A stretch of 64,000 nt of DNA from Actinocatenispora sera (GTDB lineage: Bacteria; Actinomycetota; Actinomycetes; Mycobacteriales; Micromonosporaceae), in NCBI RefSeq assembly GCF_018324685.1, contig NZ_AP023354.1, positions 2,356,001 to 2,420,000 on the forward strand, in the 5' to 3' direction. Under the pieces are notes generated by a model. The model searched no databases. It had not been told where the DNA came from and saw only the letters and a program-made list of their open reading frames with translations. A program made the position numbers and the translations under genes. This document shows positions 15,412 to 17,982 of the stretch, piece after piece. Numbering within the stretch: the stretch's first letter is position 1; every line of letters begins with the position of its first letter.

Positions 15412-15512
15412 CGTTGATCAAGGGCCCGCACGTTGATCAAGGGCCCGCAAGGTTGATCAAGGGATTCGTACGGATTCACCGCGGTCTTCGGGTACGAATC
15501 CCTTGATCAACC
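15412..15512. repeat. TTGATCAAGGG repeat cluster: two tandem copies and a perfect 21-bp hairpin
   Basis: Two identical 19-bp tandem units CGTTGATCAAGGGCCCGCA occupy 15412-15430 and 15431-15449. They are followed by GGTTGATCAAGGGATTCGTAC (15451-15471), whose exact reverse complement is at 15492-15512 across a 20-nt loop. The cluster separates cdd from the phosphorylase gene. It could attenuate transcription, but its recurrence elsewhere in the window suggests a dispersed repeat family. Confidence 0.8.
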
Positions 15513-15553
15513 GGGTGGAGCGGGACGGGACGGGACGGGGAGTAGGGGGAGTT

Positions 15554-16831
15554 ATGGGGTTTGCTGCGGTTGACGTGATTCGGGCCAAGCGGGACGGGCG
15601 GGTGCTGTCCGACGCGGCGATCGACTGGGTGATCGGGGCGTACACCGCCGGCGAGGTCGCCGAGGAGCAGATGTCGGCGCTCGCGATGGCGATCCTGCTC
15701 AACGGCATGACCGGCGCCGAGATCGCCCGGTGGACTGCGGCGATGATCGCCTCGGGCGAGCGGCTCGACCTGTCCGGCGCGCGGCGCCCGACGGTCGACA
15801 AGCACTCCACCGGCGGGGTCGGGGACAAGATCACGCTGCCGCTGGCGCCGCTGGTGGCGAGCTTCGGCGTGGCGGTACCGCAGCTGTCCGGCCGCGGTCT
15901 CGGCCACACCGGCGGCACGCTGGACAAGCTGGAGGCGATCCCGGGCTTCCGGGTGCGGCTGTCCACGGCGGAGTTCGTCGGTCAGCTGCGCGAGGTCGGC
16001 GCCTCGGTGTGCGCCGCGTCCGACGCGCTCGCCCCGGCCGACCGCAAGCTGTACGCGCTGCGCGACGTCACCGGCACCGTCGAGTCGATCCCGCTGATCG
16101 CCAGCTCGATCATGAGCAAGAAGATCGCCGAGGGCACCGACGCGCTGGTGCTGGACGTCAAGGTCGGCTCGGGTGCGTTCATGAAGGACCTCGACTCGGC
16201 GCGCGAGCTGGCCCGCACCATGGTCGAGCTCGGCGGCGCGCACGGGGTGCGGACGGTCGCGCTGCTCACCGACATGGCGACCCCGCTCGGCCTCGCGGTG
16301 GGCAACGGCATCGAGGTGGCGGAGTCGGTACAGGTGCTGGCGGGTGGCGGGCCGGCCGACGTGGTGGAGCTGACGCTGGCGCTGGCCCGGGAGATGCTCG
16401 CCGCGGCGGGCCGGCCGGACGTCGATCCGGAGGCAGCGCTGGCGAACGGTACGGCGATGGACTCGTGGCGCGCGATGGTGCGCGCGCAGGGCGGCGACCC
16501 GGATGCGCCGCTGCCGGCCGCGGCGGAGACGGAGCTGGTACGCGCCGAGCGGGCCGGCGTGGTGTCCACGATGGATGCGTACGGGGTGGGCATCGCGGCG
16601 TGGCGGGCGGGCGCCGGGCGGGCCCGCAAGGAGGACCCGGTGTCGGCGGCGGCCGGGGTGTTGCTGCACCGCAAGCCGGGCGAGTGGGTGGAGCGCGGCG
16701 ACGTGCTGGCCGAGCTGCGCGCCGACGATCCGGCCCGGATCGCGCCCGCGCTGGACGAGTTGCGCGGCGCGATCACGATCGCCGACGAGGCCCCGCCGCG
16801 CCGGCCGCTGGTCCTGGATCGCGTCAGCTGA
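15554..16831 (+). CDS. deoA: Thymidine / pyrimidine-nucleoside phosphorylase
   Basis: 425-residue enzyme that cleaves thymidine or uridine with phosphate to the base and (deoxy)ribose-1-phosphate. The phosphate-binding loop KHSTGGVGDK starts at Lys83, followed by SGRGLGHTGGTLDKLE and the substrate-loop Lys/Ser segment SSIMSKKIAEG, all classic for the family. The C-terminal domain (VSAAAGVLLHRKPGEWVERG) is complete. Start ATG 15554 has AGGGGGA upstream. It completes the nucleoside salvage operon, though the repeat hairpin lies between it and cdd. Confidence 0.92.
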   Translation: MGFAAVDVIRAKRDGRVLSDAAIDWVIGAYTAGEVAEEQMSALAMAILLNGMTGAEIARWTAAMIASGERLDLSGARRPTVDKHSTGGVGDKITLPLAPLVASFGVAVPQLSGRGLGHTGGTLDKLEAIPGFRVRLSTAEFVGQLREVGASVCAASDALAPADRKLYALRDVTGTVESIPLIASSIMSKKIAEGTDALVLDVKVGSGAFMKDLDSARELARTMVELGGAHGVRTVALLTDMATPLGLAVGNGIEVAESVQVLAGGGPADVVELTLALAREMLAAAGRPDVDPEAALANGTAMDSWRAMVRAQGGDPDAPLPAAAETELVRAERAGVVSTMDAYGVGIAAWRAGAGRARKEDPVSAAAGVLLHRKPGEWVERGDVLAELRADDPARIAPALDELRGAITIADEAPPRRPLVLDRVS

Positions 16832-16833
16832 CA

Positions 16834-16887
16834 GTTGACGTCAACGAAAGGTTGACGGTCTACCATGCGTCAACCTATGGTTGACGC
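16834..16887 (+). promoter_or_regulatory. Palindromic operator and promoter of the HTH/Clp-N gene
   Basis: Three GTTGAC boxes lie immediately upstream of the gene: a perfect palindrome GTTGACGTCAAC (16834-16845), a half-site GGTTGACGG (16850-16858), and GCGTCAACC-TAT-GGTTGACGC (16867-16887). TTGACG (16852-16857) and TATGGT (16876-16881), 18 bp apart, make a good promoter, with the ATG seven bases after the -10. The operator covers the promoter, so binding should block transcription. Autoregulation by the encoded HTH protein is inferred. Confidence 0.6.
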
Positions 16888-17595
16888 ATGGCAGACGACT
16901 TCGTGTCCCTGGGGGCACTCATCGACCAGGTCAACTCGACCACCGACGACCCCGTCGAGCGACTCGCCAGCGCGGCCCGCCGCGCCGGCGAGCTCAGCGC
17001 GCTCGGCGACCAGCTCATCGGCCACTTCGTCGACACCGCACGGGTCTCGGGCGTCTCCTGGGCCCAGATCGGGCAGGCGCTCGGCGGGGTGAGCAAGCAG
17101 GCCGCGCAGAAGCGGTTCTCGCCCGACTTCTCGCGCTTCACCGCCCGCGCCAGGCACGTGATGACCGGTGCCGAGGCGATCGCGATCGAGCACCGGCACA
17201 GCTACATGGGCACCGAGCATATCCTGCTGGCGCTGTGTGCCGATGCGCAGAGCGTCGCGGCGATCGCGCTCGACGCGGTCGGCGGACCGCTCGCGGAGAT
17301 CCGGGACGCGGCCACCGCGGCGCTCGGCCCGGCGAGCCCGGTGCAGGGCAAACCGCGGTTCACGCCGAAGGCGATGGCTGCGCTCACCGGCGCGATGAAC
17401 GAGGCGATCAGCCTGAACCACAACTACATCGGCACCGAGCACCTGCTGCTCGGCCTGCTCGCCGCGGGCTCTGGCGACGACCCGTCGGTGGCGGCCCGGT
17501 TGCTCGCCGAGCGCGACATCACCCACCAGGCGGTGCAGGACAACGTCGTCGCGCAGATCGCCGGGATCCTGCGGGAGCGAAACGAGACCCCCTGA
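16888..17595 (+). CDS. HTH protein with two Clp N-terminal repeats
   Basis: 235-residue protein in two parts. Residues about 35-85 contain a helix-turn-helix-like stretch (SWAQIGQALGGVSKQAAQKR). Residues about 90-160 and 165-230 are two Clp N-terminal (ClpA/C-type) repeats, each with the signature Y-(M/I)-GTEH-(I/L)-L-L. There is no ATPase domain, so it is not a ClpC chaperone. Clp-N repeats bind peptides or arginine-phosphorylated proteins, which makes a sensor role plausible. Upstream palindromes suggest it represses its own gene; the leaderless ATG fits the promoter. Confidence 0.7.
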   Translation: MADDFVSLGALIDQVNSTTDDPVERLASAARRAGELSALGDQLIGHFVDTARVSGVSWAQIGQALGGVSKQAAQKRFSPDFSRFTARARHVMTGAEAIAIEHRHSYMGTEHILLALCADAQSVAAIALDAVGGPLAEIRDAATAALGPASPVQGKPRFTPKAMAALTGAMNEAISLNHNYIGTEHLLLGLLAAGSGDDPSVAARLLAERDITHQAVQDNVVAQIAGILRERNETP

Positions 17596-17621
17596 TGCCG
17601 GGTGCCGCCGCGCCGACCTCA

Positions 17622-17634
17622 TAGTCTCGGCACC
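17622..17634 (+). promoter_or_regulatory. Leaderless-type promoter of the cupin gene
   Basis: TAGTCT at 17622-17627 lies seven bases before the ATG at 17635, with no Shine-Dalgarno sequence. The layout matches other leaderless starts in this window. Confidence 0.35.
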
Positions 17635-17982
17635 ATGCCTGAACTGATCAGCACACCGACCCAGATCCCGGTGCCCGGCGGCAAGGTGATCAAGGAGTAC
17701 GTGGGACGCGTCAACAGCGGCACCGAGGCGGTGTCGGTGGCCCACATGATCGCCCCGGCCGGCTGGGACGAGCCGGCGCAGACCCCGGAGTTCGACGAGT
17801 ACACGGTCGTCCTGCGGGGTCTGCTGCGGGTGGAACACGACGGCGGTGTGATCGAGGTGGCGGCCGGCCAGGCGGTGATCGCGCGCGCCGGCGAGACCAT
17901 CCGGTACACCACGACCGACGGCGCCGAGTACGTCGCGGTCTGCCTGCCGGCGTTCGCCCCGGACCTGGCCCACCGCGCCTGA
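17635..17982 (+). CDS. Cupin-domain protein
   Basis: 115-residue single cupin barrel. Cupin motif 1 is loose (EFDEYTVVLRGLLRVEHDGG, residues about 57-76) and motif 2 is GQAVIARAGETIRYTT (about 83-98), where a typical metal-binding His is replaced. Few of the usual metal ligands are kept, so it may bind a small molecule rather than act as an oxygenase or isomerase. The start ATG 17635 is chosen over an ATG at 17602 because of the -10-like box between them. Function is unknown. Confidence 0.72.
   Translation: MPELISTPTQIPVPGGKVIKEYVGRVNSGTEAVSVAHMIAPAGWDEPAQTPEFDEYTVVLRGLLRVEHDGGVIEVAAGQAVIARAGETIRYTTTDGAEYVAVCLPAFAPDLAHRA

Follow-up and report, generated by a model that had tools for sequence, protein, structure and literature searches.

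What is a protein that joins an HTH-like segment to two Clp_N repeats without any ATPase, and which of its parts reads the palindromes in front of its own gene? We examined one such gene, here called the clpC2-type gene, together with its promoter in a stretch of 64,000 nucleotides from Actinocatenispora sera (the whole stretch is referred to as the window), and compared both with homologous loci elsewhere and with a second locus in the same genome. The features considered within the window are as follows.

15503-16831, + strand: thymidine phosphorylase gene, the 5' neighbor of the clpC2-type gene
16834..16845, no strand: dodecamer GTTGACGTCAAC, an extra upstream half-site joined to and overlapping the left arm of O2
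16839..16857, no strand: operator O2, CGTCAAC-GAAAG-GTTGACG, an exact copy of the published operator
16852..16857, + strand: putative -35 element TTGACG inside O2, read from the sequence
16868..16886, no strand: operator O1, CGTCAAC-CTATG-GTTGACG, an exact copy of the published operator, one base before the ATG
16876..16881, + strand: putative -10 element TATGGT inside O1, read from the sequence
16888..17595, + strand: clpC2-type gene, an ORF with an ATG start encoding 235 aa, HTH and double Clp_N, no ATPase
16888..17121, + strand: N-terminal dimerization and HTH domain, aa 1-78 (AlphaFold2 model, homology to 8ADA)
17095..17118, + strand: putative recognition helix, aa 70-77, KQAAQKRF (helix in the AlphaFold2 model; conservation)
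17128..17571, + strand: double Clp_N domain, aa 81-228, putatively ligand-binding (Pfam, structural model, alignments)
17602-17982, + strand: cupin-like gene, the 3' neighbor of the clpC2-type gene

The domain composition of the 235-aa protein was determined from profiles, sequence matches and structural models. Pfam matched Clp_N in two stretches (E 3e-20) and found no AAA domain, and the AAA+ ATPase modules that characterize the ClpA/ClpB/ClpC unfoldases are accordingly missing from its Pfam annotation; matches to the NCBIfam profiles of ClpK, ClpG, ClpB, ClpA and ClpV covered N-terminal profile positions only and fell far below the cut-off. The AlphaFold2 model of aa 1-80 (mean pLDDT 91.2) contains helices at residues 8-16, 22-53, 58-64 and 70-77, and the turn between the last two places an HTH at the end of the N-terminal domain. 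Over this HTH region Pfam gave a sub-threshold Myb-like match and nothing else. When the N-terminal domain was compared by structure on its own, the matches (best Foldseek E value 3.3; VIA Z at most 4.6) were too weak to name its fold, and 8ADA was absent among the matches listed. A phmmer search of PDB sequences returned the N-terminal fragment of ClpC2 (8ADA), homologous to residues 6-66 of the window protein (E 3.9e-10), and the ClpC2 Clp_N structures 8AD9, 8B9O and 9P2P. The model of the Clp_N domain (mean pLDDT 92.3) fits the ClpC1-NTD structure 6UCR with a Z score of 25.6 and an rmsd of 1.1 over 151 residues. The original prediction, which had been made from the sequence alone and proposed an HTH segment followed by two Clp_N repeats without an ATPase, is thus supported by the ORF, by both Pfam results, by the HTH of the AlphaFold2 model and by the homology of this region to 8ADA and to the antitoxin RelI.

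The gene is separated by 56 bases from the ORF upstream and by 6 bases from the ORF downstream, and both operators sit in the gap that follows the upstream stop codon, spaced 29 bp apart. The putative -35 and -10 elements are 18 bases apart and the ATG follows the latter after six bases, an arrangement compatible with a leaderless transcript; the leaderless transcript predicted here from the sequence agrees with what has been suggested for ClpC2 in the available text of PMC10030653. The original prediction had seen this promoter as covered by the perfect palindrome GTTGACGTCAAC and a 21-bp dyad. Both are present, but the dodecamer is not the operator unit and the full O2 had been missed. The 21-bp dyad, GCGTCAAC-CTATG-GTTGACGC at 16867-16887, is O1 with one additional flanking pair. 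The dodecamer occurs as a single perfect copy in the window, at 16834-16845, and the dodecamer region together with 16822-16828 makes up a third dyad with one mismatch (16822-16840). As an operator in its own right the dodecamer was rejected, since homologues conserve CGTCAAC-N5-GTTGACG instead and the extra half-site is retained in 3 of 4 members of the genus.

A regulator of this kind has been described. According to the available text of Taylor et al. 2023 (PMC10030653), mycobacterial ClpC2 dimerizes via its N-terminal domain, binds CGTCAAC-n5-GTTGACG in its own promoter in EMSA, one to two nt upstream of the ORF, and has a second operator copy further upstream in many of its members. It is an autorepressor, since a knock-out derepresses the promoter; cyclomarin A releases it from DNA, and ClpC2 then sequesters cyclomarin A (PMC10030653). 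The statement in the original prediction that no such regulator was known is therefore incorrect, ClpC2 having been published in 2023 as an autorepressor and cyclomarin sponge (PMC10030653).

Judged by its sequence, the window protein is a divergent ClpC2 (Rv2667-type), with every defining feature present: an N-terminal domain without ClpC1 homology and related to 8ADA, a C-terminal double Clp_N domain homologous to ClpC1-NTD with no AAA+ module, an operator one nt upstream of the ORF (16868-16886) and a second one overlapping the promoter (16839-16857), and an aromatic pair, F81 and F158, which the alignment identifies as the counterparts of the cyclomarin-contact pair F96 and F172 of ClpC2. 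Domain order, lack of AAA, operator, second copy, putative leaderless promoter and aromatic pair are all shared with Rv2667 of M. tuberculosis and its M. smegmatis orthologue. Unlike these, the window protein has a one-residue insertion in the HTH turn and an extra upstream half-site in its promoter, is 36-43% identical to 50 aligned homologues, carries T167 where ClpC2 has the cyclomarin contact E181, and lacks both published DNA-contact arginines, which belong to the published mechanism rather than to the definition of the family. Its double Clp_N domain resembles the N-terminal domain of ClpC1 in fold and sequence; ClpC1, unlike the window protein, has no HTH and continues into AAA+ modules after its N-terminal domain. 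CtsR and HspR are repressors of clp genes under protein stress that belong to other protein families, and neither is known to have a Clp_N sensor fused to its DNA-binding part.

It is very probable that the gene encodes a ClpC2-type autorepressor, whose tandem operators are read by the HTH and released when the Clp_N domain binds its ligand. In this mechanism a dimer held together by the N-terminal domain would read CGTCAAC-N5-GTTGACG via the HTH (recognition helix aa 70-77) and would occupy the two tandem operators over the -35 and -10 elements of a leaderless promoter, shutting off its own gene. When a ClpC1-binding peptide antibiotic (e.g. cyclomarin) or an unfolded substrate occupies the Clp_N domain, DNA binding would be lost; the freed protein would then accumulate and soak up the ligand, and ClpC1 would be protected. 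We infer that the window protein acts in the same way as mycobacterial ClpC2, that the HTH is the reader and what its natural ligand would be.

In order to determine how far the operators accompany the gene, we assembled a set of fused HTH/Clp_N genes from 30 loci, the window's included (39 of 200 genomes matched at an E value of 1e-30), together with the 80 best out of at least 581, which gave 110 in total. Twelve loci were removed by hand or because their frame length exceeded 420, most of them AAA-sized frames lacking an HTH, and the length filter also excluded L017, which does carry two operators, leaving 97 genes with the window's among them. The set holds some near-duplicates (L045 and L091 are the same contig, and L029 and L040 are nearly identical). 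Within two mismatches, 93 genes have two operator copies, three have one and one has none; L045 and L091, which were scored as single-operator genes, show two copies in another scan. The spacing from copy to copy is 28, 29 and 30 bp in 56, 35 and 2 of the 93 two-operator genes, respectively. Start codons in this set were moved to follow an operator lying 0-3 nt upstream, and the operator distance of -1/-2 is therefore partly a matter of construction, whereas the presence and the spacing of the operators are not. The conservation of the operators with orthologous genes, on which the original prediction had staked its reading, is thereby borne out. The sole fused gene without an N5 operator, L097 from Catenulispora, has two N6 dyads, whose arms lie one base further apart, and its HTH helix is divergent. 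The fused family gave 190 raw hits to N5 dyads and none to N4 dyads.

A search with the N-terminal domain of the window protein identified a second locus in the same genome in which the two domains are encoded separately:

G000:C1:1977339-1978160 (L003:1228-2049): split pair, a free 73-aa HTH gene followed by a 183-aa double Clp_N gene

The two genes themselves take up 1977385-1978160. The Clp_N gene starts two bases after the stop codon of the HTH gene, and the promoter contains two GTCAAC-N4-GTTGAC dyads, the last one three bases before the ATG. The split pair thus shares with the window gene the GTTGAC half-site, tandem operators at the start codon, the same two domains and the genome itself; it differs in consisting of two genes, in the N4 instead of N5 spacing and in its recognition helix (VSRQAVHKK versus VSKQAAQKR). 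With E values of at most 1e-6, the free HTH has homologues in 191 of 298 genomes of an order sample and 95 of 197 of a class sample; PLSDB plasmids gave no match to it at E 1e-6.

We analyzed the operators of these split loci in two steps, with one mismatch allowed in the ten core bases; the larger set was composed of the 30 best loci plus 26 hand-picked for family spread, and a further 30 best plus 40 hand-picked (126 altogether, of which three identical ones were dropped), and the hand-picked loci were chosen before their operators had been seen. A GTTGAC-type N4 dyad within one mismatch was present at 54 of the first 56 loci, and the other two had N4 dyads with both arms changed alike; none of 976 control windows from the same loci contained one. 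In the larger set the N4 core was found at 120 of 123 loci, with two copies at 102, and this conservation of the core is partly by construction given the mismatch limit, whereas the control and the single spacing are not. In the class sample a paired GTCAAC-N4-GTTGAC occurred at 28 of 29 loci, at least two of which repeat earlier ones. N5 dyads were absent from the split loci examined. A Clp_N-like frame follows the free HTH at all 56 loci at an alignment score of at least 60, a threshold at which the weakest scores alone are not certain because the shuffled background reached 65; 43 of these partners were recognized by motif and 12 more by eye, and one (L192) looks degraded. At this locus, L192, both operator arms are changed to ATTGAC. 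ClpC3 (MSMEG_3761) is named in several papers; in PMC5660060, as far as its text was available, it is reported as monocistronic, which does not favor the split Clp_N half being ClpC3. No description of the split pair was found among the papers listed in the literature searches.

The half-sites of the split family may also vary with the recognition helix. The canonical base 1 is present in 154 of 202 half-sites of loci with a lysine in this helix versus 84 of 222 with a glutamine, and since 56 of the 57 glutamine loci come from one family, within which the counts are 33 of 56 versus 83 of 218, this comparison is confounded by relatedness. Two fused proteins with glutamine have altered sites as well, L097 in both dyads and L128 in O2 only, its O1 being perfect. 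These counts are only suggestive of the lysine (K75 in the window protein) reading base 1 of the half-site. The change from lysine to glutamine with a relaxed base 1 was seen at L187, L188, L190-L192, L206 and most of L212-L280, which is likewise confounded by relatedness.

A regulator with two operators at its own gene could still act elsewhere, and we regard as improbable the explanation that the protein is a wider protein-damage regulator with targets beyond its own gene. The exact CGTCAAC-N5-GTTGACG occurs twice in the genome of 7,044,238 bases, both times at the clpC2-type promoter. The expected number per genome, calculated from the base composition of the window, is 0.017, which argues that the operator pair is not due to chance. 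With one mismatch there are five further sites, one overlapping the clpC2-type promoter and four away from it, and these four could be taken as additional targets, as could the related operators at the second Clp_N locus; heat induction of clpC2 has also been reported (PMC10030653, available text). At up to two mismatches 76 sites were counted versus 43 for the pattern reversed as a control; this excess is modest, and five copies from a repeated element contribute to it. However, of the seven exact GTCAAC-N3..6-GTTGAC sites (control, one), two are at the clpC2-type gene and two at the split locus with N4 spacing; two more fall within long open frames, and the last is intergenic, on the 5' side of a gene judged TetR-like by eye. 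Moreover, no N4 sites were seen at fused genes and no N5 sites at split ones. The same two-mismatch dyad occurs five times, approximately 16 kb apart, in G000:C1:3886852-3950951 (L209, L210), where the two copies compared are 97% identical over 2.1 kb and contain an integrase-like frame by eye; this region may hold a repeated element of about 16 kb.

Which domain reads the operator is a point on which our reading departs from the published one. The available text of PMC10030653 places the DNA contacts on R185 and R189 of the Clp_N domain, on the basis of a conserved positive surface and a double mutant. In such a mechanism the arginine helix of Clp_N would read the DNA and the N-terminal domain would merely dimerize, an explanation to which we give a low probability. 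It draws on the R185A/R189A mutant, which weakens binding in EMSA and whose M. smegmatis equivalent raises expression 2.0-fold (PMC10030653), and on the frequency of arginine among the 97 fused genes, 95 of which have it at the first of these positions and 91 at the second. Yet the dimerization mutant R57A derepresses more, 4.6-fold (PMC10030653), and the window protein has N171 and S175 in place of the M. tuberculosis arginines. In three sister species, aligned by eye, the two positions are occupied by N/R, S/N and S/D, such that R185 is missing in 4 of 4 genus members and R189 in 3 of 4; O1 is nonetheless perfect in all four, and O2 is perfect in three and has two mismatches in the fourth.

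The recognition helix is near-invariant. Among the stretches compared in the 97 fused genes, aa 41-77 is the most conserved, with a mean identity to the majority residue of 0.93, and aa 67-77 reaches 0.955. The value is 0.71 over aa 6-40, and the two Clp_N repeats have 0.62 and 0.72. The published N-terminal crystal, 8ADA, covers residues 4-72 after proteolysis (PMC10030653), and its alignment with the window protein ends at residue 66, before the recognition helix, the second of the HTH; this crystal thus lacks the recognition helix. Additionally, the split HTH, which is not attached to Clp_N, uses the same half-site, and this supports the HTH as the reader in both forms. The loss of the arginines with retention of the operators, and a near-invariant recognition helix that lies beyond the crystal fragment, suggest from sequence comparison that the operator is read by the HTH, with the Clp_N arginines at most as helpers. 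Given the published effect of R185A/R189A, the Clp_N domain may help DNA binding. The arginines kept in most fused genes, and the toxin contact made by the HTH region of the related RelI, likewise speak against the HTH as the reader.

We then considered what the Clp_N domain would sense. The original idea of a Clp_N-sensing autoregulator holds for the ClpC2 family, which probably senses peptide-like ligands or unfolded protein; the ligand preference of the window protein may differ from that of ClpC2, given the change from E181 to T167 in the alignment. It is very unlikely that the domain senses phosphoarginine-tagged proteins. Its model does match 5HBN, the N-domain of a ClpC carrying phosphoarginine (Z 20.4, rmsd 2.3 over 142 residues), but this fold is common to ClpC N-domains and hence shows no ligand, and the ligands reported for ClpC2 in the available texts are cyclomarin, ilamycin and ecumicin analogues, and unfolded protein (PMC10030653, PMC12913811). 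The 2026 report (PMC12913811) found that an ecumicin analogue and an ilamycin bind ClpC2 with no induction of ClpC2 in cells.

The HTH region is also related to RelI (E 0.0014 against the window protein), the antitoxin of the RelS-RelI system, whose HTH region is related to ClpC2 and which, unlike the window protein, has no Clp_N and pairs with the RelS toxin (PMC13284704, available text). In that text the putative HTH of RelI contacts the toxin, no inverted repeats lie upstream, and fusions of the HTH to other domains are mentioned (PMC13284704). No adjacent RelS-type toxin gene was found among the four + strand neighbors scanned (thymidine phosphorylase, cupin-like protein, DUF4272 and adenosine deaminase; frames of at least 80 aa). 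That the HTH-like domain binds protein as in RelI, for which the available text of PMC13284704 gives no evidence of DNA binding, and that another regulator uses the palindromes, is extremely unlikely, since mycobacterial ClpC2 binds its operator in EMSA and its knock-out derepresses (PMC10030653), and since the operators accompany the HTH gene in fused and split forms alike. Two other HTH relatives are encoded in the genome, and in the sequence retrieved for each, as far as the ORF end, no GTTGAC dyad within one mismatch was found. One of them (L134, reverse strand, G000:C1 near 538031) combines an HTH like that of ClpC2 and RelI with other domains and by eye resembles the published HTH-DUF3887 fusions; the other (L135, G000:C1 near 6724642) contains the motif LGTPQAARQRY, and a palindrome, GACAACC-ATC-GGTTGTC, was noted upstream by eye.

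Taken with the HTH as the probable DNA reader, the split loci make us lean slightly towards ClpC2 being a branch of a wider actinobacterial family of HTH/Clp_N switches that read GTTGAC half-sites, with a fused form on N5 operators and a widespread, apparently undescribed split form on N4 operators, so that the two would not cross-talk within one cell; this split form would serve as a two-component sensor, either of proteotoxic stress or of antibiotics that target ClpC1. The autorepressor type itself is already known; interest lies in the split family and in the fact that the published DNA-contact residues have been lost naturally. In mycobacteria ClpC1 is targeted by antibiotics, and at least one drug class is blunted by ClpC2 (PMC10030653, PMC12913811, available texts). 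Predictions of when ClpC2 is induced depend on which of its parts reads DNA, a question that this genus, having lost the arginines naturally, makes testable. If the split pair works alike, many actinomycetes would carry, apparently unstudied according to the literature searched, a second sensor of this kind.
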